Origin: Lichtheimia corymbifera B2541
Taxonomy: Eukaryota > Mucoromycota > Mucoromycetes > Mucorales > Lichtheimiaceae
Assembly: GCA_000697475.1 (NCBI GenBank)
Contig: JNEU01001003.1
Coordinates: 124,001-188,000 of the forward strand
Reading direction: 5' to 3'
Length of the DNA stretch: 64,000 nt
Shown here piece after piece: positions 10,406 to 47,255 of this stretch. The notes below the pieces were generated by a model. It had not been told where the DNA came from and ran no database searches. It worked only from the letters and a program-made list of their open reading frames with translations. How positions within the stretch are numbered: position 1 is the stretch's first letter; every line of letters starts with the position of its first letter. The position numbers and the translations under genes were made by a program.

Positions 10406-13400
10406 CTAGTCTATGCCTCCATTGACTTTAACCTTGCGTCCTTTGCTGGTAGGTTTACTTGGGCCAGCTGCGAATGCATATATGGGTCCATTGTACTTTT
10501 TGCCAAGTAGCATACGCCCTTTGGTAGTCAATTCTTCATCGAGTGTTGTGGATGTTTCCCCTCGAAGTTCAATGCTATCAACGCTATGGCGCTTGTCTCG
10601 TGGATGATGATGATGTTGTTGTTGTTGTTCGTGGTCATGCGATTGATCGGAAGTTTGACGTTTGCGAGATCTAAAAAAAAGAATTGATTGTGAGCAAACG
10701 TGTAGATGACAGCAATAGATAAATCTTACTTTAGAGACCAGGGTATAAAACGTCGTGATGGTGTATGTGATGATGTGGAGGGTGCTGTTGTTGACTCGGC
10801 TGCATCTTGATCATACAAACTCATTGACCGAAGCGAGATAGCATCATGATCCAATTCACCTTCTTCCAATTCATCCTGCGTACTATCACTCGATTCATTA
10901 TCACTGTCGCCATAGATACGTGCATCGGGATCCCCAAACATGTCGGAAGGCGTACTCTGCGTCGAAATACCCGATTCGGTCATCTTGTGAGGCGGTTGTT
11001 CTTTTGTATGATGTCGGCGAATCGTGAGCTTTTCTTTCAACAAGGCGGTGCTGTTGTGTAACAATGCAGCTCGCATGAAATCTGTATTACACATGTTGGT
11101 ATAAATTCCTCATACATTATGCAAGCACATACCTCTTTTAACGGTGGCAAGCAACTCATACCATGACCAGGTCTCATTACTGTATTCAAGAGTAGGCTGC
11201 TGGAAAGTGAAATCCCGTAAATCCTCAATATTCTTCTCCTTGGGTCCCTGGATCCAATAGACGAATGTAAGAGACATGCATTGCACTGAATAAATATGCT
11301 TACTTGATAACTCAAACAATGTCGTGTGCCTGGGATCTTGACCAGCAAAAAGGCTCTGTTGCTTGATGCACGTTTCTTCATGACCGATAAATCATCCACT
11401 GCTGCCTTTTTCGCTCGCTTACGCTTGGCTTGCTTGAGACCCTTTTTCATGGATGTGGGTGCAGAGGTCGACTCACTCACAGCGGTACTAGTATTGTTGC
11501 TGATGTTGTTATTCTCGAGTAAAGCGGGTGCACTCTGTTGGAAATCTTCCAAGCCTGAAGCTGCCAAAAACATGTCGCCTGTAGAAGCTGAAACCTGCAT
11601 GCCTGATTCATTCTCAAGAGCCGTTGCCGCTGTTGCTGTCACAGGAGATACAGGAGACTTGTCATTGTTGTTGGATGCAGTGTTGCCAGCTGATTTACGT
11701 CGCTCGACTGGGAACAAGAAAGATGCCAACGCCTTGCCAAGTTCATATGTGATCTGTAATCTCAATGGGCACAAGTTGATCTCCAAATGTTGTATCACAG
11801 GAATCCCACCAACGGGTGGCAAATCAGCGAGATAACCACGAAGCATCTTGTTGCGTGAGAAGTCAGGTGTCTTTTTGTTGTTTCCATAGTATGGTGCAAT
11901 CACGTCAGTAAACACTGGGGATGAGGTGGTATTCTTGATATGCAGCATTTCGACTTCGACCGTGTTGCTGCTGGAACGGTCTTCTCGGTTGATAAGCATG
12001 TACATGGTGTTGGTAAGATTCCACTCGCATAATGGCTTGTCCTGATCAAGCATCATCTTCCATACAATCTTCTCGGCAGAGAACACAAACTTGAGATTCG
12101 TCTTGGGTTCGTGATAATTCTTGCCCCGTTGGCTGCGTTGTTGTGTAAGCTTGATAGCCTCCATACCCAAATACAACTCCTCCATCTGCTCACGCATGGC
12201 CGCTCGAATGGATCGAAATTCTTCAATACGTGCTTGGTCAAGATGCGGTAGTCGTTGCCGATATTGAGTATACATGTAGACAAGTTGACGCACGTGATCC
12301 TGATGTCTTGCAATACGCTCGGTTGTCTCGTGTAGGCTATTCCGATCCGCTGCCATCATAATTTCACGCAATCGATCAAGTCGTTCTTTCTTGGCTGGTT
12401 CCTTGTACAACAATAAATCTGTCACCACCTCGTAAATAGCATTGTACTGCTGCGAGTTGACTGTCAATGTCAATTCGGGGAAGCTGAGATGCACTGAATC
12501 ACAACGATCTTCAAATGGATGAATTCTTGCAAAGGATGTTGGATGCGTCTTGAATCGAAGCTGATTATATTTGTCGTATTGGATCGAAGCTGCCAATCGA
12601 AAACCGACTCGCTGGAACTTGTCTGTGCGCTTGACATAATCGATCAACATCTCTGGTGGAATCCATGCTAGCCATCGATCGCTTTGTTTGGCACCATAAT
12701 GGTTGTCAAGGAGTAAATCCACGCTGTCAAATCGTTCCTTTTTGGCCACAAAGAATTGCGAATTCTCCACGCTGACTATAGTACGATCCTTCACAAGGTC
12801 CATTTCCTCATCTGGGTCATTGGTATCGGTGATAGCAAAACCTTTCACTTGCATACGCTCGTTGGACATGAGCACCAAGCTATCCGGATCACGATCGCTC
12901 TGCAAGCTAACTTGAGGATGAATAAGATCCACTAAATAACTGCTCTTGATGCTGTATCCTTCAGGGACGCTGTTCTTTTGATATACTGGGTCGTTCACAT
13001 CAATACTGCCACCTGATGCAGGCATGTCATTGTCGGGTGCGCGACTTGTATCTGTGCCATCCTCGGTCTCATTCGTTGCCACAAGTTTGGTATATTGTTC
13101 GGAAAGAAGTTTCTCCAATAGCTCATGTGGCATACTTCCACCATTGCCATCGCTGTCATCATCCACCACAACCGTATCAGGTTTCCATCTTCGCTGCTTT
13201 TGTGTTGCTTCAGTGAGATCTCTCAAAAACTTGACAGCACGCATAGAGCCATAATATGTCAATGCTCGTCGATGCGCTTGAAGATCGAGGAAATGATAGA
13301 TAATGTTGCGTACTGAGTTGTTCCAAATGATTTGTGGATTGTGGACAATACAGCGTTGCTTGAAATAGCCCATCAACTCCTCCCATCTGGCGACTGAATC

Positions 13401-16400
13401 CTTGCAAAATACGGTTGATGTGGAATAGGTGGTACTGTTGTCAGATGTACTGCTGGTATCAGAGACATTCGGCATCGTTTGAGTGGAGAGTTGCTTAAGA
13501 TAACGCTGTAGCTGATTGCGCTTTTCAAATAACACCTCGGTCTTTTCCACAATTGATTGTGACTAATGAAAGAACGTATTAAATACATGACAAATCAACC
13601 CTTTTTGCTTTACACACCTCTACCAAGAACCTTTCATCGTCTGTCTCAGAGTACTTGCTCTCAACCACATGAAGACGAGCCTGATGTTTGCGGATTTGGA
13701 CATCAATGTCTTGACTACGCTGCTTCAAAAGCTCCATCTGGATCTCACGTGTATCTATATATACAATGAAGGATGTTGGTCATTGTATTCTCTTTTCTCT
13801 ATGCTTATACATACCACCAGCCGTATCCACAATGCAATTATGCGTATCTCTCAAATAGCGATATTTGTCACGACCACCACGATTGGTTTGCTTGAGATAA
13901 TACACGAGTGGCGAATATACAAAAGGAAGGACTTGTACTGTGGGTGGTGTAGTAGGTGCGGTCACTCGTAACTCGATATAGTCGTCAGGATCAGCCCAAT
14001 CGGATGGCTCATTATCCTCATTGGCTCGCTTATCCAATCCGTCCATGAGGTCTGGATCCACACTGCTGTCGCTCATTGAATCGCTTGAACGATGCGTAAT
14101 GCTGATAGAGGGTGGCGCACTGCTTCCAATGGTACCGGCATCACCTCCTCCACCACCTCCACTGCTGTTGACGCTTCCAGGACCATTTGTAGTTGTAGTT
14201 GTAGTTGTAGCAGAAGTCCCAGTAAATCTTGCCCTGACGGCACGTAGATCAATGCTCTTCAAATGTATCTCCGCTTCATGCACTGGCCAGTTGGCCTTGA
14301 GTCTCTTGCTGTCAAGTTTGTGGTTGGTCACATCGATGATCTCACGTCGCTGATGAATGTCCACATCAAAACCGGCCACGACACCTTTTAATCCAACAGA
14401 ATCACCCGTCTCTTCGATATGCTTGTTATCCTCGCTAGTGAATTCATCCTTGTAAAAGTAGCCAATCACCAGTGGATGAAGCATCACCTTGTATTTCATA
14501 CTCGTCATATGCTTGCCAAACTTTTTGGTGGGACGTGGATCGCTGCGTGGAAACAGTGGGCCATTACGCATTGGATAGCCCATAGCACCGCCAAATAATC
14601 GAAACCAGGTGACAAAGTGATCCATGAAGCCTGGTGAGAGATGCATCGAATTGAGGTTGGCAGTAGAGATGTCAATCTTTTCATTCTTTTCAGATGATAA
14701 CTTGATGATGCTGATCGAAATGTGAATAAAGTGTGATCGAAATCCTTCATATGCATCATAACCCTGTAAATTATATTAACAATGAGCGATCTTTCTTTGT
14801 CAAATATAATGAACCTCATACCTCGCCATGATCTGGTAATGCTTTCACTGCTTGTGGCGTCTTGAAACGTACTCCATAATGGGGCTTGAAATGCAAAAAG
14901 CGGCATCGCGTCGTGTCGAGACGTGGGTTGATAGAGATACGTCGAGTTGATCCACCGTCTTTGCAGTTCTCGCATCCCCAACCACACATCCGTTCAAGGT
15001 GAAATCCAATACCCATCCGAATTCCATCTGAAAGCTTTAGCGCCACTTTGACAAATCTCGGATCAGATCGTGTTGCATTAAGCAATGATGTCAATGTTCT
15101 CGTTCGCTTCGGCGCACATGCATTCTTGTCGTGTGTATCATGTCCTTGTTGCTGATCATCTTTGGCATTGATTCCCGGCAATATATAGGTCGCTGTGTAA
15201 CCGCCATAATCCAAATCAGGCACGCCAAATGCATAATCTCGACTGATGATTTGTAACACCTCGCGATCAGGATTGTCGTGATTGATCAACCACACCACAT
15301 CATTGCTCCACACTTTGGCTAGACCATAACCACGTTCACTGGTATCATAGGGATCACGCGTACCCTTCATTAAGAACGCAAAGTCACCACCACCGACAAA
15401 AGAGATCTTGGCACGTGTATGAATGAGTAATCGAATCTTGTCCCAGAAACCGACTTTGGGTGATGGATCCACGGGAGGTCGTGTAAACGAATCCAGCACT
15501 CTTGACACATCTTGAATGGCAGGCTGATAGGGCACCGACCATGAAATGCTTGACATGTCTTGTGTATGCACATCAATGTTGACAATCGAATAAAATTTGG
15601 CTGGTGTGCTGGTACGTGCAATGTCCATGGAATAGGAAAGGGTATCTTCAGCAACAATGGGTATATTAATGCGCCGTGTAGCATCCAAATGGCCTAGCTC
15701 ATCACCCAGCACGTAATCGCCTGACAATGACCATGATACGGGTGGTTGCTCGTCGCCAACTTCACAATGGCCTGTCGGTGGTGGGACCAACAAGACTGGT
15801 AAAGGATAATCGCGAATCTGTGCCCATGTCTCACCCGCACACCAATCCAAATGGAAGGGAACCAGTGTGGAAAACTTGGTATCAATAGGAATGCCTTTGC
15901 CATTTTCATGCACAAATTGACGTGTCTCATCCAATGGGAAATCAGGTTGCCTCATGGTGAAAGACATGTTCATGATGGTGAAATCAAATAAGGGCGGATG
16001 CGGTGGAATAGGCATTGTCTGAATACAAAATAGGCTTGCGATTGATTGCCCTTCATCATGCTGTTGTTCGTCATACAAATCATCCAAACCACCCATCATA
16101 CAAGCATGTCGATAATCGGATAAGCGGATGGACTCGTGCTCTGATTCTTCCTTATGCATAGCGTCATTGATATGTTTGATCCAGGAGTTTGAATGAATCT
16201 CTTGCAGCCCATGCCATGCCTCTTTCACGCGCACATTGGCAGAATCATTGTCATCATCAGTAGCTGTGCTGCTAGCTGCATCATCATCGCGACCAGAACT
16301 TGATCCACTCTTTTTCATTCCACTGCCCAAAAACTTGCTACGTGCTTGCTCATTGTCCATAGCTCGACGTCCGCTACTAGGTGTGTTGGTGGTGGCGGTG

Positions 16401-19400
16401 GCGTTGTTAACGTTGGTGGTATCTTTGGGTGATGATGAGGATAATGCCTCCTGCATAATAGTCTGTGCCTTGGCTTGAAACGCTTCCTGCAAAGCAAGTC
16501 TTGATTGCTGCTCAGCCAATCCTGTACGCCAAATCATTCGCAGTCGAATCTCGAAAGGATCATCATCAAAGTGCAGTCGAAAAGCATCACATTTCAAGAT
16601 AATGGTAGGCAGTGCACGCGGTCCAGGTGATAATGCAGGCCCAAGATATGTGAATGGCTTGATATTGGAGAATCGCCCATGCATGGCTTTGAGCGCCTTG
16701 ATAAAGCTGACCGTATTGTCGACCACATTGGCAACCACATATTGATATGGAACACGTAGCATCAACTTGGACATGACAAATTGGAATGTTTTCTTTTCCC
16801 TCGACTTGATGAGCTCAAAAGAAACATTGTCCAACTCCAATAATTGATCCCACTTGCCTTTTTGCTTGGGAGTTTCACCATAAAGTGTAATGTTGCGGAT
16901 GCTGAGCGTAGGCTGCTGCTGCTGTCGTCGATCCTCCTCATCACCATTGCCATGCATTTTGATCTCTGTACGAAGACCATCCATTCGCAAATACAATTTG
17001 GTCTTGTTGGGTAATGAAAGAGCAATATCTCCACGATTGATCTGCAACTGGGCCTTTTCCACCTTGACCTTAGGGCGTCCTGTCGCTGTTGTTGTTGTTG
17101 TCTTTTGTTGCGCTGTCGAAAAAACGTGTCGTTTCAAATCCATGACGTCGTATAATGCCAAGATGATTGCATAATGTTCACGAATCGAATACTGAAAACC
17201 GCACTTTTTGACAACCATTGCCGGGGACAAGACAGCTGCACATGTCTCATCCATAAATAAATCAGCCGATAAGCTCACACGAGAACTCCAAAAGAGCAAA
17301 TGATCGCCATGATAATCGTGATCTTCACTTGGACTGAAGCCGCTTCGGACCGTAAAGCATTGGATCGAACCACGCAACATGCCATAGCGATTATGGGTAG
17401 ATGACTCTTGCGAATCCTCAGAAGAGACTGATAACCGATGCTGACGAGCAACCCCTGTGCCACTGAATCCCAAAGAAAGCGATTCAAATCCCACTGTCAT
17501 TTGCGAGTCGATGTCGTGCTCTGGTGCGTTATCCATGTGTTGCTCAGGCACAGGACGTTGACCTTTGATCCCCTTATCCACACTGACCAAGATGATGGCA
17601 AGATCAGCTACCAATACTGACACTTTGATGTGTTTCAAGATCCTGGGATCCATTGACGTTGTATGATGATGTTGTTGTTGTGGCTGTATTTTGGGTGATT
17701 TGAGTGAATTGGCAATCTGGTTGATCCAAAATTCAAGGTCGCGCTGTTTATGTATGCCGAAATGTAACACAGGTGCACGGACCGAAAATTCGACTTGATT
17801 GTGCTGCTTCTCCCATGCCCATGTCACTCTCGAGTCATCCTCCTTCGTTACAGTTGCTGCCATTTGCACACGTGCACCCAATTCACCACGCTCAACCGTG
17901 ACCAAGGCTGGCTCCTTGACAATCGCATTCAAGCTACGTGCCCAACGTAGTGCTAAATGGTCAATCTTGATCCCTGCTCTCGCATGGTACATCCACTCAT
18001 CCACTGTCGTTGCTGCTGCTGCTTCCTCAGGTTCAGGTTTCCAACTTTTTCTGAACAACTTGCTCCATGGCTTGGGTTGTCGTCGCTTACGTACGCCAAA
18101 TTCTTCACAAAGAGGAGATATCGGAGGTGACGTTACTGATTTTGTCAAGGGAACATAACCACCGGATACTTCCAACGTCACATCCACGCAACTGACAAGT
18201 CCATGACCACCATCCTTTGAATGACAAAAATCCAACAAGGGCCGTTCCAGTTGTATCGATAACGAAACATTGGGCAAGTTGTCAAACTGTCTTTCTTTGT
18301 GGATCCATGTGCTCCTTTTCTCATGTCTCGTGTCTGTTGATGATGATGTTGATGTCTTGTGATCACTGAGGAAGGCGCGTAATAGCCCAATCTTGTCGAT
18401 ATCCACCGTCACCTTAGGCTCCTTGAAAGAAACAGTCGCTTCCACGTGTCGTCGTCGTCGTCCATGTGATGATGCACTGGTATTGTTGCTCTTTTTATTG
18501 CCTACCAATTGATCCAATGCCATGTTCCTGAGCATTGAAGATGGTGTTGCTGTGGTGGTGGTGAGCTGCTCATCATCTTCTGATATGGTTGCTGGTATAT
18601 TGCTAACTAATGGACCATTTGTCATAGCCACTGAAATACGAGTGCGGGGTATCTTGAGAGGTTCAATGTATTCAGTAGCTGATTCAGGTTTGTTGTTGAA
18701 AACGGACCAAGTAATGTGTTCCACACTACCCTGAACAACCATCGTTGCGACTGTTGCCGAAATCATAAATGTATGTAACCGAATAGATGAATACAAGCCG
18801 AGTGGCGTTTCATATGTAAATGCTGTATCGGATATGGTGATTGTCATGTTGCGTACAAGTCGTGTGAATTTGTTGCCACTGCCTCCTCCCTGACGACGTT
18901 GTTGCTGTGCTGATTTTGCTTGTTGACGGATCGACTGAATGGCTTGTGTGATACGAGAAACCTGATCCAGTTGAAGCTAAATAATAGCGTATTAGCATCC
19001 CCCTATCTTTTACCACCCAACTCATTTATTACCTGGATAGCATCAACATGCATATTCACATCCACATCTTTAAGTGTGACGCAACCTGCTGACAAATGAC
19101 ATGAGATGGCAACTCGGCTACCCTTCGGCAGACTCAAAATGTCGTTGGTCGTTCCATTTGCTGGAAGAAATCCCACGTGGCCCATTTGGACTGTGATCTC
19201 GAAAAACTTCTCCTTGAATAAATGCTCGGCTCGTTTAAGCGAATGTCGCTGTCGTCTTGCATGAAAATGATGATGATTGGTACTGCTGCTACTGCTATTG
19301 TTGTCAGAGTCGGATGTGAAATGTTGTTGTACTGCATCCATCCATGTCGCTGTTGTCCTTGATGGCCGATGCAAAGGCATTCTTGAAACTGCAGCAAACA

Positions 19401-22008: not shown

Positions 22009-23887
22009 ATGCATCCACAACACCCACATCCCATCGTCGACTTGCCTACACCATCCTCCAGTGCACAGCTTATTCCATCATCATCGTCACCCGAAAAGAA
22101 GGATCATGATCCACCTGTTTCACCTACTGCCATTTACCAGCACATGATTATGTCAGATACATTGGATACCAAATCTCCCGAAGAATTACGATCCCTTGTA
22201 CAAGAGGCATATACAACACTTCGAGCCAAAGAAAAGGGTATGTTACACACGTCTTACATGGATACGAAGACTAAATCCCATGATTGTAGATATCAAGTTG
22301 GCAGCCGAAGTGGGATGGGCTTTGCTTGAAAACAATCTGGAACTCAAAGCCAGGCACGAGACGTTGGAAAAATCGCTTCATGTGAGCCGGACTAGCAGTC
22401 CTGAACTGGATATGAAACCATCGACATCCATTCTCACCCGATCCAACAACACCCACGCCACAGCATCACGTATTTTGCAACGTGTCGATTCTAGTGATAG
22501 TCAACAAAGCAATGACTCTAATAGCACCATGCGATTGATTTCACGAGAGCAAGCAGATGAGGCCATTGTACGTATGCTAACCGACAAGAACGCTGAGATT
22601 CAGCATATTCTTGATACCACGTTGGCACGACATGAGGCGGCACGTCAAGCAGATTTGGAGCGTACACAACGACTCGAGCAAGAAATGAACCAGCTTCAAA
22701 CCAGGCTTGATCAAGCCGCACAAACAATAGAGCGTCTTGAAAAGTCAAAGTCAGCGACATCACAACAACAATCGGCAGCAGCAGAAGAATCAATGTATTC
22801 CTCATATGACGATCACATGCTTACGGCACGTCTTGCTCAGCTTCAACAAGAGCATGAACACTTGTTAGCAGGCAAGGCAACTACCCAAAGCAAGCTTGAC
22901 AAGGCAACTTGGGACTTGGAACAGTGGCAACAGCAAATTGCCAATCTAGAAATCATTGACCAGAAATACAAAGTACAGCAGATTGCATTTACTCAGCAAG
23001 CACACGATATCACACGGCTCACAGGCGCTCTTGAGGATTACAGAACACAAATGACACAAGAGGATACTACAAGCAATAAGAGTAGTCGTCGTAGTAGTCG
23101 AGTTGAGCAGCATGTGTACTTGGATAACGATACACAAATCACCTATTCAAGCGATAAGCTGAAACAGCCAGCAACAATGACGCCATCCAAAAGTAACCAG
23201 ACAACCAGTTTATTGTGTGAGCTTGAAAGAACATGGGCAAAGGAGCGTCGTACCAGAGCAGCTCCTCCCCCACCTCTCACACTTGCTTCGTCTAACCATC
23301 ATCATGGTCGTCGCGCATCATCCACTTTCACTGATAGTGCTGCTACTACCACCAATAGAAAAAGCAGCGTACATGAATTACCGCCTGCTATATCCGCTAC
23401 ATCGCCTATGCACCACCACCACATGCTATACGAATCCCCAACGCATACATCCAACGGTGGTAGCAATATCAGCATGTCATCATCATCCAGTGAAGGTGGG
23501 ATGTTACTTCCTTCTCCATCGACGTATTCATCATTATCATCCCAAAAATACGCTCGATCCTTACATCCATCACCAAGCAGTATTGTTGCTGGATTTGAAA
23601 ATGGCTCATGCACCATACCACCGTCATTGTATGCTAACCTTTCAGCATGTTGCAGCCGACGGCCATTGATTCCTAGTCCACCTATCCGACGCTTCAGGAG
23701 ACGATCTGTTGTTCCACCTTCATCATCATCATCCACCTCCTTGTGTTCCATGCTTTTGTGGTTCCCATTGTGGTTCCCATTGTTGATGATTCACAAGATT
23801 TGGGCCTGGTACAAATTCTCGCTTATTCTATTTCTAGCAGTCCTCATCAATCTCTGGCAAGGTCCAGACGCCATTCTTGAAAAGTAG
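22009..23887 (+). CDS. Tail-anchored coiled-coil protein with CC1 box (candidate dynein adaptor)
   Basis: Not a named fungal family that I recognise. Exons 22009-22237 and 22290-23887 give 608 residues. Residues 1-50 are Pro/Ser-rich. A helix follows, and the exon junction creates DIKLAAEVGWALLENN at 77-92, an exact AAxxGxxLL CC1 box as in BICD, Spindly, HAP1 and TRAK, which binds dynein light intermediate chain. A long coiled coil runs about 150-350. SLLCEL at 383-388 matches the SLxxEL Spindly motif that contacts dynactin's pointed end in those adaptors. A disordered Ser/His/Pro region follows, then two hydrophobic stretches (about 564-600) and a short polar tail, consistent with a tail anchor. 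Adaptor function is inference from motif order. The two exons join in phase; the start at 22009 is the first in-frame ATG. Confidence 0.8.
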
Positions 23888-26620: not shown

Positions 26621-27424
26621 GATGAAATGTGTGTTGTACGGGGATTCCACTTGGGCAGTTGGGAAGGGCAAAACGTGCTGAGAGAGAAAGGGCAAGCGGT
26701 TTCAATCCAAGCAGCATCAAATGAATTGAATCCTGAGCTCGTGACTTACGACACCCCCACCCACCAGCTCCCTCTCTCTTACCCACACACCCATACTACT
26801 GAAATGCACTGAACACCCAACATCTCCAATTCAATTAGACAACTGCAGAGATAACCTGAGTATAATAAGATCATGCATGCTTTCAATAAAATCTCAAATG
26901 TAACTACTACGTGGTATGGGAATGAATTGATAGACGTATCGGCATGATCCATTACCATGTCTATAATGAAGGTGTCATTGTTTGACTTTCTTTTCTCAAA
27001 CGAACGCTCACACAAACTTTCTTGAACAATATCTTATTCCATGATGAAATAAGAGCACAGCAAGCGTTTTGCAATAGCATATTGATGTCATTGTTTAACT
27101 ATAAAGGTTGCCATCTTGTTTATAGATCCTGACTTATTCATTGACATCCAAACATGTCAACAAGGCTCTATGTGAAGACAACAGCTGGTCCCCATTTCAT
27201 CACTCCTTCCTCCTGTTTGTGATCACAAAACACCAACGCCCATCATTTTAATTTAAAGTGATAATGGAGACATCAAAGCATGAATATGAAAATGGGGCGT
27301 GATGCGTGCATGATAGGGCGAATAAAGTTAGGCGACCAATTTCATAGCGTAGAAATCACGTGGAGCTGGGACAATTAAAATTCATTGGATGTCAATGCGG
27401 TGACACTTTTAACCCTTCTTTCGA
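26621..27424. other. Bidirectional promoter region THP3/TTI1
   Basis: About 800 bp between divergent genes. No coding or RNA feature is recognised; AT-leaning, with presumed promoters in both directions. Confidence 0.55.
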
Positions 27425-30400
27425 ATGTCTTTATCACCTCTCTTTGGGCAACTTATTCCTATACGCCAAACATGCTTTTCAAAAGACCCTCTGAATTCAC
27501 GACAAGATAGCCAGCAACTCAATGAGCAATTACGCGACCTACTCGCCATTCTAAAGAAGCGATCAGAATTTGAGACATGCGATGCAGCGATCTATGGCGT
27601 TCTAAATGATATGCTTGTGGCAGCACTTTTACGTATCAAAAAGGCCAACGCACGATACGACAGCACAGTTGAGATATGGCTTGAATGTATGCTTGCTCTT
27701 GTCAGCTATGAACGTTGGCAACTCCTTGCTTCGTCACAACTCGTACAGCAGCTCGTGATTTTGTTTTCAGACATGATTATGCCACCCGATAAAACAGCAC
27801 GCGGCACTACATTCCAGCAACAACAGCAACCCGAAGAAATCCAGCATTTAGCAATCCGATGTCTTTCATCGATTCTTCCAGTACAAAAAGGCAGATATTA
27901 TTCACAATCACCCAGACCCGACTTGATACAAGCGCTGCAGGATATCAAGTTTCGATCTCAAATCGGTTACACTGTCACTGCATTGCTCGAATTATCGCTC
28001 AAAGCCGATGCTATGGAAATGCGACTTGTTGCCATGGAAACGCTCAGACAACTTTTATTGGACAATCTCAGAGATGAGGATATCATCGCTTTCATGTTGC
28101 CAAAGATCGTGTCCAATCTATGTCGTATCATGTACCAGAAGAAGGAAAAAGAGAACCATCGCATTTTGGTGATTGCATTGGACGTACTGGGTGATGTGCT
28201 GGTGCATGTACTTTGTGATTCCAATACCCCGGATTATATATGCCCAGTCGTCCATTCATTTCAGGATTTGGCACGTGTCGGCATTTTGGCAAAGACGACA
28301 AACACAATACCCGAAGAGGAACAAGAACAACAACGCACCAAGGAATGGTATGAAACCATCCAACAGCGGATCGAGGAACAATTGCAAACTATTTTGGGAG
28401 GCGGTGGACAACACAACGAATGGCGTGTGCGACGAGCCTATGTGCGATTTGCAAACAAGCTGTTGACACGATGTGCACAGACATTGGACAAGTGTGTGCC
28501 ACTGTTACTCAAGACGATGGTGCTTCATTTTGATGATCCATATAAGCAAGTGGCCATCGAATGTAAGATGCTTGTTGGGGAGCTAATGACAAGAGAATCT
28601 TCTCCGCAATTGACGATCATCCCCACTCTTCAATCCAATCTTTATGCATCTCTTACCAGCCTTCCTGCATGTTTGATCTCTGGTGGTGACGAGCAAGAAA
28701 AGGCGAGTGCTATGGCTTTGATCACTGGCTACGTTCTCATACTTGGAAAACACGCTGAAAGTGTTCTCGACAAGGGTATCACTCGCAATGCGGATGCATG
28801 GCTTACGGCACTCACTGTGGATCGTGATGGTCTCAACATCCTTGATGAAGCATGGCAAAAGAGTGAAAAGTTCGTCGACTTGCAACAAGAGGATTCAGCC
28901 ACAGCATCCTTGGTCTATCCCAAATTCCGATTCAAGTATCTGGTTGCCGAGCACACGGTTGAACAAGCAACACGCATGTTGAATGTTATTGGAAGCAAGA
29001 GCAGTGATGTTGGTTATTGGATCAATTTCTTCAAGGGATTTATTCATCCATTGAACGACAATGAATGGGAACCACAAGCTATCTTTGTGATCCACGCCCT
29101 TCTTTCAGGCGCTTCGTCACGTGATGAAGATGATGGTAGCGATTGGGGATTACATATACCTCGGGAGGAAGATGATATGGGAGAAAAGCAAGCCTTCAAG
29201 ACTGTGGCATTGCAGGCACTCCATGACATGATGGAAATGGTGATTGATCCCGCGGAAGAGGACCCATTGTCTCAAAGCAAAGCCATGGTATCAACAACAG
29301 CGACGATGATGACAACCACTGAAATGGAGACTTCCAAGGTGCTTTCAATATGCTTTGGCTTACAAACAGTCGGGTTATTGGCGTGCATATTGGAACGAGA
29401 GTATATGCAAGATGAGCTCATCACCATATTGTATCCGCTACTGGCACATCTCGGTTCACCCAACATTTCAATCCACAGCTACGCATTGACAACATTGGAT
29501 GTGATTGCTCTTGTATGTGGACAGAGGAGTGCAAAGGAGTTATCCGTGGCCAATTGCGATTACATCATCAACATGGTCACTCGCCGTATGACGGTGCTTG
29601 CTGACAACATGCGAGGTCCACTTGTGCTCAAGGCTCTCGTTCGTATTGGTGGTCATGCCATGATTGATTATCTCGGTGATACAGTTGAAGAGATCTTTGA
29701 TGCACTTGACAGGTTCCATATGCATGGCTGGTTATGTGCACAATTATGCAGCGTGCTTACGGAGATTGTTTTGGTCTTTTATCGATCCACCGGTCTACTC
29801 GATATTCAGCCATTCTCTGATGACGACATTGAAGCGACAGGAAACGTGGAGCATCTTCAACAGGATATCAATCCTATTTCAAAGGACATATATGAGTTTA
29901 TTCAGGCACAACAACAACAAGAGTATACTGACGACCCAGTTGACAAGGCGACAACGGAAGAAATTGGACGTTATTTCTTGGATCTGCAACGTCAAAAGGA
30001 GAAGCAACAGGAGGAGGAGGACAAGAAAGAAATGACAATGGATGAGGATGAGGATGATACAGCAACAATGAACCATGGCAATGACGATGACAAGATACCC
30101 CTTACGCCAACTGAAAAGATGACGGCTGATATCCTGCAAAAGGCACAACACTTTTTGACATCTCCATCACCTAATGTTCGATCGGAAATACTTGCGCTAT
30201 TTGGTAATGGCGCTGTCGTATTACAAGGACGACCCGAGACTTTGGTACCTTTGATTGCTACAGTATGGCCATCCATTATGCAACGATTGAAATCGGACAA
30301 TGAGCAACACCATACGATCATACAAGCCGTGGTATGTGTTGGCCGACTTGCAGAAAGCGTAGGAGATGCATTATCACGCCGATTTGAGAAACAAGTGTGG

Positions 30401-30814
30401 CCACGATTTCGTACGTTGATGCAGCAAGGACAAAGTGAAGGTGTATCACAATACTATTCGCCCTTTTCTTATATGAGCCGTTTGCATGGATCCATTCTTC
30501 AAGCTATCACCAAGGTAGTCGATCACGTAGATTTAACGGCTGAAATTGTGCCCGAGCTGCAGGCAGCCACTCAGCGCTTCTTGGACGAGCGTTTTCATCC
30601 TGACTTGCAAGAATACGCCATCACGCTTATGATATCACTTTCCAAACGACATCCAGACACAGTATGGCTAGGTCTATTCTCATTGTTGGGCGACAAGGCA
30701 CGAATAACAGCCCCTGATCCCATGTTGAATGATTTTGTGGTAGCGGAATGGTCAAGAAACAAGGACAAATATTTAGTGAGGAATGCACGAAGGCTGTTGG
30801 ATCAAATTGCGTAA
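27425..30814 (+). CDS. TTI1: Tti1, HEAT-repeat subunit of the TTT (Tel2-Tti1-Tti2) complex
   Basis: Co-chaperone scaffold that matures PIKK kinases (TOR, Tel1/ATM, Mec1/ATR). One uninterrupted exon of 1129 residues, close to the length of other fungal Tti1 proteins. It is all-helical with HEAT-like repeats: an N-terminal armadillo part (LRDLLAILKKRSEF, IQHLAIRCLSSIL), a central part (MEMRLVAMETLRQLLLDN, NHRILVIALDVLGDVLV), an acidic linker at about 830-890, and the C-terminal LFGNGAVVLQGRPETLVPL followed by WPSIMQRL, the most diagnostic match to animal TTI1. The C-terminus DFVVAEWSRNKDKYLVRNA closes in family style. It has no introns, although most neighbours are intron-rich. The identification rests on motifs and repeat order. 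Confidence 0.87.
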   Translation: MSLSPLFGQLIPIRQTCFSKDPLNSRQDSQQLNEQLRDLLAILKKRSEFETCDAAIYGVLNDMLVAALLRIKKANARYDSTVEIWLECMLALVSYERWQLLASSQLVQQLVILFSDMIMPPDKTARGTTFQQQQQPEEIQHLAIRCLSSILPVQKGRYYSQSPRPDLIQALQDIKFRSQIGYTVTALLELSLKADAMEMRLVAMETLRQLLLDNLRDEDIIAFMLPKIVSNLCRIMYQKKEKENHRILVIALDVLGDVLVHVLCDSNTPDYICPVVHSFQDLARVGILAKTTNTIPEEEQEQQRTKEWYETIQQRIEEQLQTILGGGGQHNEWRVRRAYVRFANKLLTRCAQTLDKCVPLLLKTMVLHFDDPYKQVAIECKMLVGELMTRESSPQLTIIPTLQSNLYASLTSLPACLISGGDEQEKASAMALITGYVLILGKHAESVLDKGITRNADAWLTALTVDRDGLNILDEAWQKSEKFVDLQQEDSATASLVYPKFRFKYLVAEHTVEQATRMLNVIGSKSSDVGYWINFFKGFIHPLNDNEWEPQAIFVIHALLSGASSRDEDDGSDWGLHIPREEDDMGEKQAFKTVALQALHDMMEMVIDPAEEDPLSQSKAMVSTTATMMTTTEMETSKVLSICFGLQTVGLLACILEREYMQDELITILYPLLAHLGSPNISIHSYALTTLDVIALVCGQRSAKELSVANCDYIINMVTRRMTVLADNMRGPLVLKALVRIGGHAMIDYLGDTVEEIFDALDRFHMHGWLCAQLCSVLTEIVLVFYRSTGLLDIQPFSDDDIEATGNVEHLQQDINPISKDIYEFIQAQQQQEYTDDPVDKATTEEIGRYFLDLQRQKEKQQEEEDKKEMTMDEDEDDTATMNHGNDDDKIPLTPTEKMTADILQKAQHFLTSPSPNVRSEILALFGNGAVVLQGRPETLVPLIATVWPSIMQRLKSDNEQHHTIIQAVVCVGRLAESVGDALSRRFEKQVWPRFRTLMQQGQSEGVSQYYSPFSYMSRLHGSILQAITKVVDHVDLTAEIVPELQAATQRFLDERFHPDLQEYAITLMISLSKRHPDTVWLGLFSLLGDKARITAPDPMLNDFVVAEWSRNKDKYLVRNARRLLDQIA

Positions 30815-44400: not shown

Positions 44401-47255
44401 ATGGCTGATGCATCAGACCCCCAACCTAACGACACCAACGACAATCAGCCCAAAAACAACTCGAATAACCTGGGGGCTGCATGCTTTCGGTGCAGAGGTT
44501 TTAGGCATGTATATTCTTTGTTCTTTCTCATTCCACTCCTCTTTTTAACATTCATTATAGACATGCGTGCGACCGTCAAAAGCCAGCCTGTTCTCGGTGT
44601 AAACGACGAGGCATTACATGCACATATCCCGAAGCTGCCCCAACGTTGAAGAAGCTTCAAAAGGCGACAGAGACTCTTGGCGATCGTATACGCAAGTTTG
44701 GTGATCGATTAAAGTCGACTGAGGCTGGAATGCCCAAAGAATTTAGAGCCATTTCATTACAACGACTTGCCCAGCAACAACAACCGACAGCAACAACAAC
44801 ATCACCACCCACCCCAGATACAGCATCCGATACATTATCCATGGCATCATCAGAAGCAACATGCGAAAGTAGCAGCAAACAACAACCGCATCGATTAGCA
44901 TCCACCAGCAACTTTTCTGTTTATCCATGCGGCAAATGTTTCAAGGATCTACAGCAGTGCGACTTGACACTTCCGAAATGTAGTCGTTGCGAGGCCAATA
45001 ATTTCGAATGTGTCTATGGCAAAACAGAGCCCAAGGCAAACCATGTGTCCCAAGTATTGACGACGATGAACAAGGTTATGGATCAATGGCAGGAATCAAT
45101 CGATCGTATGGCTCGTGACTTTGCGCAAAAGACAAGAGACTTTTCTCAACGCACCAACAATGCATTTCGAATGAAACCATTGCAGCCATTCGCATGGAAG
45201 ATCACATCCACAGGTCGAGGATTATCAGTGGAAAGCAACGTCAACTCGTACAATGACCTTTCGAAGCTAGTGGATCAATTCAAAAAAAGTATGCATATTG
45301 GACCACCGGTGGATGATGGTGATCGAGACAATGATGATGGAACAGCAGTGGGTGGTGAATTGCCTGGATCTATGAGAACAGCAGCAACCGATGAACGGCA
45401 GAGGATAGCACAATCAGTGGAACTAGATGATACCAGCTCAGTACATACATCCTCGGGCTTTTCGTTTGCAGTGTGGAACTCTTGGTCACATCCCATGCAC
45501 GCAGTACCTCAGGATTACCCTATCGACATCACCGATGAGTTGACAGATAACCTAGTCGAGTTGTATTGTCGATCACCATGCTGTTCAGCCATTCGACTAC
45601 CGATCATTGATACAACTGAATTCATGAGACGTTATCACGATCCAGATAATCGCCCTTCCCAAGTACTGATCTATGCCATGTGCTCCATGTCAGCGCGTAA
45701 CGCATTTCAATTGCACATGTGGAGTAAGCGACCAGCACACGAATCACCACAATACAACATGGGCAAAGCATTATCGATTGCCTATTGTCTCAAAGGACGT
45801 GAAATGTTATCCGAATGCTTCGATGAACCATCGCTCGACAATTGCAAAGCAGCCATTCTACTTTCCTATTGCAGCTATCAGAACGGCTATTCCGGTGTGA
45901 TTTATATTTACGAGTGGATTGCATACAACATGGCACGAGAGCTTGGATTGTACGATAGTGGGCGCGAGTTTACTGAGGCTGAGAGCAAACTTGTATGGTG
46001 CTTGTATTATTTCAATACGTGGTATCGTGTCTTACAAGGTGGATCGAGCGCATCCGTGGAATCAAGTCAATTTTATCCATGCTGTCCGTTACCAGAACCA
46101 CCGACCAAGCCAGTTATGAGTGCAATGAAAGAAGAAGAATCACCGATCAAGTCAGATATGAGTGCAATGAAAGAAGAGGGGGTGGAAGAGGATGAAGCGA
46201 CTCGTCAAGAATTAGTGGATTATTACGTGTGGAGCACATGGTATTACCTTATCCGATTGCAGATCCTTCGACACGACGTCATGTCTCGATTAGTGGCTAT
46301 CCAGACGACACCCGGCAAAGCAGATCCCAACATATCGCTTGAATTACTTGCATTACAAGATCGTCTTCAAGAATTTTACAGCAGTTTACCTGATGAATGG
46401 CGTAGTCCGGATATTGCAGCCATGGCAGCAGCAGCCAAAAATGGAAGTAGTAGCAACAGCCAGTGTTCAGGATCACCATGTGCAGCAGCAACAGCCATGG
46501 ATGGATTATCACCATCATCAGCAGGATCATCTGATCGACATTATCATATCGACATTGCAAGCTTTGCAAGGTTTTGTATTTTGCATGTCCACATTTATTA
46601 CAACATCAACAAAATCCTATTGTATCAAGCATTCTTTCCATCTGAGCACTTTCCAACCGTACCATTCTCGATTCAATGCTTATATACATGCGTGGATGCA
46701 GCATCGACTATCACACAAACGCTTGAATACATGTCACAACAACACGACGAATGCAACGTACCATTGATTGGATTCTTATTCGCCAACATTGTCTATATCA
46801 AACTACTCAATTACCACGAGCATGAACGATGGTCTGATTTTGCGCGTCAATGCTTACAACTCTCGGTGGACATTTCCAAAGCATCGGTCACCTACATGTA
46901 TGATTTTGAGCGTGCAAAGACACTTGTGAGTGTTATGGAGCAAGATGTACGTGCATTATGTGGTCCTTCACCGCCATCACCTTTCAATAACATTCCCATG
47001 TGGCCGCATTATTACCCACCTCCACACATGCAACGGACCAACAGCGTTGATTCTTCATCAGATGGATGGTCACTGCGATCTCACAGCTCAATGCCTTCTC
47101 CACCTTATCTTCCAGTCACTTCTTCCTCCTCTTCATCCGCCACTGCAGCAGCAGCAGCCGCCCATCATCATCCTCATCATTCTCACCAATACAGTAAGCA
47201 AACAACAAGCATCACTGGTGTTCCTTCTCGTTACTACGAAATGATGCAACCATAG
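44401..47255 (+). CDS. Fungal transcription factor with two Zn2Cys6 clusters and an MHR domain
   Basis: Exons 44401-44504 and 44561-47255 give 932 residues. The first binuclear cluster is Cys28-31-38-45-48-55 (CxxC-x6-C-x6-C-xx-C-x6-C), split by the intron. A second cluster of the same spacing lies at Cys158-161-168-175-178-185 (CGKCFKDLQQC, KCSRCEANNFEC). The second is poorer in Lys/Arg between its first cysteines, so DNA contact may differ. The fungal-specific middle homology region spans about 300-720 (LPIIDTTEFMRRYHD, RELGLYDSGREF, WCLYYFNTW). The tail is Ser/Ala/His-rich. A 15-residue near-duplicate (PTKPVMSAMKEE and PIKSDMSAMKEE) lies mid-protein. The intron is GC-AG (AG|GCATGT); only this donor preserves the first cluster. 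Targets unknown. Confidence 0.9.

Follow-up and report, generated by a model that had tools for sequence, protein, structure and literature searches.

A candidate family of tail-anchored, CC1-box-class dynein–dynactin adaptors in Lichtheimia corymbifera

We analysed a 64,000-nucleotide stretch of the 35-Mb genome of Lichtheimia corymbifera B2541 (GenBank assembly GCA_000697475.1, contig JNEU01001003.1, positions 124,001 to 188,000 of the forward strand), here termed the window. It contains a two-exon gene (22009-22237 and 22290-23887) whose spliced frame of 608 codons begins with the ATG at 22009 and closes with the stop codon ending at 23887. The product is probably a tail-anchored membrane protein that serves as a dynein–dynactin adaptor of the CC1-box class. 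With slightly less assurance, we also propose that it represents a fungal family, with at least three paralogues, joining an animal-type CC1-box dynein site to a tail anchor, so that each member, as a single protein, would connect a given membrane with dynein–dynactin. The motifs, their order and spacing, their conservation and the matches to partner genes were computed. The parts of the gene are as follows.

22009..22237, plus strand: exon 1, residues 1-76 plus one base, with the low-confidence N-terminus and the start of the CC1 helix
22238..22289, plus strand: GT-AG intron (GTATGT...TAG), splitting an Asp codon after its first base (between KEK and D)
22290..23887, plus strand: exon 2 with the stop codon, residues 77-608
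22301..22327, plus strand: CC1 box AAEVGWALL, residues 81-89, with the HAP1_N, BICDR1 and TRAK2 matches
22382..22543, plus strand: linker, residues 108-161, of low model confidence, with a short helix at 130-142
22544..23071, plus strand: two long helices, presumed coiled coil, residues 162-237 and 248-337, mostly 75-91 in AlphaFold2 predicted local distance difference test score (pLDDT)
23198..23257, plus strand: Spindly-like helix, residues 380-399, containing SLLCELERTWAKE, with the motif LLCEL at 384-388
23789..23887, plus strand: C-terminal candidate anchor, short tail and stop codon, residues 577-608, hydrophobic at about 580-599, then QGPDAILEK

The spliced frame reads AAEVGWALL at residues 81-89, which confirmed the AAxxGxxLL CC1 box claimed there in an earlier note on this DNA; residues 74-92 are KEKDIKLAAEVGWALLENN. 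The CC1 box of BICD2 is EKIQAAEYGLAVLEE, in which A43 and G47 form the cavity for the helix of the dynein light intermediate chain (LIC) (PMC7655957; here and below, papers are cited for excerpts of their text). A PDB search with residues 1-108 retrieved five distinct sequences at E <= 10, namely four of BICDR1 (best E 0.0034) and one of TRAK2 (0.32). With a box profile made from seven family members over 53 columns, four BICDR1 records (best E 1.5e-7, 34.1 bits) and TRAK2 (0.0023, 20.7 bits) were matched, and below E 0.01 the matches were CC1-box adaptors only; two SIR4 records (0.038 and 0.053) and two thiamine pyrophosphate-enzyme records (above 1) lay beyond this value. Whole-length profiles also placed BICDR1 first in PDB (E 0.0055 and 6.2e-5). 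In a profile check of the kind suggested in the earlier note, Pfam HAP1_N (PF04849) matched the box region, residues 71-112, at E 2.3e-4, while its 20.9 bits did not reach the Pfam cut-off of 33.9. One paralogue described below, paralogue A, gave E 1e-6 and 28.7 bits against the same cut-off.

To control the box matches, a hidden Markov model was rebuilt from the seven rows of the box profile and run on heptad-position shuffles. None of 20000 shuffles reached 30 bits (top 25.7) and 22 of 20000 reached 20 bits, so that the TRAK2 match at 20.7 bits, taken alone, falls within the control tail. In a second control, 20000 segments taken from later helices of family members scored at most 3.7 bits. 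Given the restriction of PDB box matches below 0.01 to CC1-box adaptors and the absence of any shuffle at 30 bits, a chance AAxxG pattern was ruled out. As judged from sequence, the protein has the CC1 box that is expected of CC1-box dynein–dynactin adaptors.

The closest named protein was LRAMOSA04480 of L. ramosa, with 87% identity at full coverage in BLASTP and 91-92% in MAFFT alignments. The protein search yielded ten proteins, of which P0001 was the window's own record; six named homologues represent five genera of Lichtheimiaceae, two being from Circinella and one each from Lichtheimia, Fennellomyces, Zychaea and Phascolomyces. P0001, P0003, P0004 and P0005 start at or after the exon junction, P0003 and P0004 even beyond the two alanines, and the four were taken as truncated gene models. 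In the resulting eleven-row alignment, G85, L88, N91-A97, L384, E387 and L388 were invariant, and L89 and L385 were each replaced by Met in one row. The genome itself holds two paralogues (A and B), one at C157 (583 amino acids) and the other at C286 (539 amino acids), with identities of about 27% to the window protein and 38% between the two. Both carry AAEIGKSLLENN, and K, E, D, L, A, A, E, G, L, N and N of the box are retained in them despite this low overall identity. The order of parts given in the earlier note was confirmed; the named homologues and both paralogues likewise have the CC1 box first, then long helices, then a motif of the LLxELExxW type and last the anchor. In the model of paralogue B, the intron at the conserved site has GC-AG ends; the position and phase of the intron are common to the window gene and both paralogue models, and the start and exon junction of the annotated L. 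ramosa protein P0002 coincide in alignment with those of the window protein. Because junction and part order recur in the L. ramosa protein and the two paralogue models, a gene-model error was judged unlikely.

Columns identical in nine rows were concentrated in the CC1 core (residues 71-95, 13 of 25), the Spindly-like helix (380-399, 6 of 20) and the anchor with its tail (577-608, 11 of 32). Elsewhere they were sparse: 1 of 56 in the N-terminus (1-56), 2 of 54 in the linker (108-161), 10 of 76 and 11 of 90 in the long helices, 0 of 10 and 1 of 42 in the gaps, and 1 of 162 in 400-561. These three islands match what would be expected if the CC1 core, the Spindly-like helix and the anchor were the working parts. 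An unrooted nine-row tree separated seven orthologues from the two paralogues by one branch (100/100), with a long-branch warning; the simplest reading would be that the duplication preceded the split of the genera. Searches with the C-terminal 47 residues and with 89 residues around the CC1 box found nothing beyond the ten known proteins, in a search that needs shared exact words, and scans of viral and prokaryote contigs confirmed no relative. Within the linker, PSTSILTRS (window 22418-22444, residues 120-128) was identical in all eleven rows, altered in paralogue B and absent from paralogue A; it is possibly a short interaction motif.

The second motif of the earlier note, SLLCEL at 383-388, also stands in the spliced 608-residue frame. 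A homologous L-hydrophobic-x-E-hydrophobic pattern was present in all nine proteins and was the sole match to the pattern in eight of these; L, E, L, E, W and K of the helix were invariant across seven family members, and the paralogue counterparts are LLYELENEW and LLGELESEW. Loss of either motif in orthologues, named in the earlier note as a ground for rejection, was not observed, apart from the two truncated models P0003 and P0004, which start past the two alanines. As a pattern, a candidate Spindly motif is present, located after the predicted coil break. The distance from the first Ala of the CC1 box to the LL motif was 280-319 residues in the nine proteins; it was counted for the adaptor reading, since the corresponding segment of known adaptors has about 270 residues (PMC7655957). 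In known adaptors, a coil break precedes the Spindly motif (PMC9481740), and the model likewise places a helix break before the Spindly-like helix.

AlphaFold2 on the eleven rows gave a mean pLDDT of 52.5 and a predicted template modelling score of 0.21, and the overall modelled fold is not trustworthy. Locally, the predicted helix 57-107 (pLDDT about 71-76 across 61-100) ends 18 residues past the CC1 box and is followed by the two long helices, by additional shorter helices and by helix 562-599 (66-80 over 571-600). Both motifs were modelled as helical, the second at lower confidence, and a structural break at them, which the earlier note had considered, was not seen. Its "long coiled coil" stood only in part: the long helices are present and presumably coil together, but the AlphaFold2 helix boundaries describe separate helices, with the linker between them, and not one continuous rod. 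Helices of 51, 76 and 90 residues, 217 in total, sum to about 32 nm by the rise per residue, with the 54-residue linker between, in a low-confidence monomer model; members of the class are expected to form a parallel coiled-coil dimer that spans about 35-39 nm between the CC1 box and the coil break preceding the Spindly motif, and to carry a heavy-chain site, HBS1 (CC2 box), past the CC1 box. The BICD2 coil also breaks near residue 80, about 27 residues after its box (PMC7655957).

The hydrophobic C-terminus described in the earlier note was recovered with a hydropathy of 1.82 over 19 residues. It is among the most conserved stretches: F586-K608 was identical in all eleven rows except for L588 in one, so that orthologues keep the segment, and in the paralogues GPDAVLEK or GPEGMLLEY comes after a C-terminal hydrophobic stretch. 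By hydropathy and conservation, we infer a candidate membrane anchor here. A hydrophobic segment with a short tail lacking net positive charge favours the endoplasmic reticulum or nuclear envelope over mitochondria, and our guess is that either of the former membranes fits this tail better.

Coiling, dimerisation, binding, motor activation and membrane insertion are what we infer from these features. Two copies of the adaptor would pair through their coils, and the FFxxLL helix of LIC would sit in the AA/G pocket of the CC1 box. The coils would extend along the dynactin filament, whose pointed end (p25/p27) would be the docking site of the LLxEL helix. Since the C-terminal membrane helix would tie this assembly directly to an organelle, a separate cargo receptor would not be needed.

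Candidate partners were found in the same genome. Four co-linear pieces matching DLIC lie on C271, where a frame reads SNQAIASFFQSLLQRKTTGSG and includes SFFQSLLQRKT, an FFxxLL helix, which we take to align with the human LIC helix. The contacts of the LIC helix are L444, F447, F448 and L451 (PMC7655957). DCTN5 (p25) matched three pieces on C432, the best exceeding the cut-off, and this family also fired in 4 of 14 control prokaryotes, above the cut-off in one. Dynactin p62 matched five pieces on C421. A Hook-like gene on C237 rose above the cut-off only together with its neighbours, and a match on C245 was weaker. Because the LIC helix and the p25- and p62-like genes occur together in one genome, purified components would suffice to put the hypothesis to the test. 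A zinc-knuckle frame (CFKCGERGHMKRDC) that is gag-like by eye lies at about 4547-5476 of L010, immediately downstream of the gene for DLIC.

Several results weigh against the adaptor reading. HAP1_N missed its curated cut-off in both the window protein and paralogue A, had no match at E <= 1 in paralogue B, and appeared at E <= 1 in just 4 of 11 alignment members (4 of the 11 rows being upstream-truncated models) as well as in 4 of 14 control prokaryotes. A six-frame HAP1_N search of the genome gave five weak matches (best E 0.0118), among which the adaptor locus and the paralogues were absent, perhaps because the matching stretch is too short for the first pass. BICD2 and Spindly chains were absent from the PDB search results, although papers describe such structures. 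The whole-length profiles also matched unrelated BST2 coils (0.013 and 0.0012) via a later helix, and the NCBIfam search gave coil-type and stray matches only, with coil families down to E 2.3e-5. A profile of the Spindly-like motif retrieved no adaptor from PDB; the motif is a short pattern on a modelled helix (380-399) with pLDDT of about 50, and it departs from the stricter form xL(F/A)xE, having Leu where PMC11310688 writes F/A. Finally, linker 108-161 interrupts the predicted helical rod after the CC1 box.

The broken rod, the low pLDDT of the Spindly-like helix and its missing profile support in PDB would suit a membrane-bound LIC-binding recruiter, like RILP or JIP3, that neither activates the motor nor engages dynactin. 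However, JIP3 and RILP are described in the excerpts as having short coils and no obvious Spindly motif (PMC9481740, PMC7655957). In the window protein, by contrast, the three helices add up to 217 residues, and the LLxEL helix counts among the three conserved islands; we regard such a recruiter as unlikely. Doubtful as well is a KASH-type protein of the nuclear envelope, whose helix and tail would reach the lumen and bind SUN while dynein moves or places nuclei. This proposal keeps the mechanism with dynein unchanged and merely specifies which organelle is involved; the strict conservation of the tail and a weak KASH_CCD match in 1 of 11 members (E 0.0023) agree with it. Nevertheless, no Pfam KASH-domain match was among those listed for the window protein, the eleven members and the paralogues, and the tail past the hydrophobic segment has only about 10 residues, ending in ILEK or LLEY, unlike the proline-rich ending of KASH peptides. 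A golgin-like coiled-coil membrane tether unrelated to dynein, with AAxxG as a coiled-coil coincidence, would account for the long helices with a C-terminal anchor and for the unrelated coil-family and BST2 matches, but we consider it quite improbable in view of the adaptor-only box matches below E 0.01, the shuffle control and the box residues retained in the paralogues. Adaptor candidacy is supported at the level of sequence features; the word "activating" in the earlier note exceeds the evidence, in which the helical rod is interrupted.

The neighbouring genes gave no sign of a common function with the adaptor candidate: upstream on the minus strand (window 11043-18976) lies a large gene of the Hobbit/FMP27/BTLP2 family, matched by three adjacent frames, and downstream on the plus strand (27413-30808) a homologue of TTI1 (TELO2-interacting protein 1). 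A Zn2-Cys6 fungal transcription factor is encoded further along the plus strand (44505-47249).

Among known systems, BICDR1 (BICD family-like cargo adapter 1, BICDL1) has the closest CC1 box in PDB, with KEKDLxLAAxLGxxLLExN in common; past the box it showed no significant match, and it is not known to have a membrane helix. TRAK1/2 and HAP1 are similar in the box DLxLAAxIGxxLLxxN (TRAK2) and in the HAP1_N match below the cut-off. Robust dynein activation by TRAK requires both the CC1 box and the Spindly motif (PMC10011603), and TRAK reaches mitochondria via Miro, which owns the membrane helix (PMC10746525), whereas the window protein carries a predicted membrane helix in the adaptor itself. 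KASH5, an activating adaptor, and ZYG-12, a candidate one, both bind dynein and have long coils ending in a C-terminal helix that crosses the membrane, a transmembrane nature that sets them apart from other activating adaptors (PMC10071310); our candidate resembles them in its presumed coils, its predicted membrane helix and its proposed dynein binding. In place of a CC1 box, KASH5 has EF hands and ZYG-12 a Hook domain. The putative motifs of Nesprin-2 are in reversed order and insufficient without BicD2 (PMC11310688), whereas those of the window protein are in canonical order. Fungal dynein adaptors include Hook and Num1, and a Hook-like gene is also present in this genome. Hook carries a Hook domain and Num1 is a cortical PH-domain protein; neither is known to have a CC1 box. 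Fungal dynein transport is mostly attributed to Hook and cortical adaptors. The role of Hook adaptors in this transport is described in PMC7649786. No fungal CC1-box adaptor was described by title or abstract in the literature searched, which mostly excluded subscription papers; no described case of a CC1 box combined with a tail anchor was found there, and none of the excerpts examined describes a protein that has, in canonical order, a CC1 box, a coil, a Spindly-like motif and a membrane helix.

If the family in Mucorales is truly of the CC1-box type, this class of adaptors, whose motor-binding motif has so far been known mainly in animal proteins, would not be confined to animals, and its mode of action would either predate animals or have arisen outside them. 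An organelle could then also carry, built into its own membrane, the adaptor that couples it to dynein.
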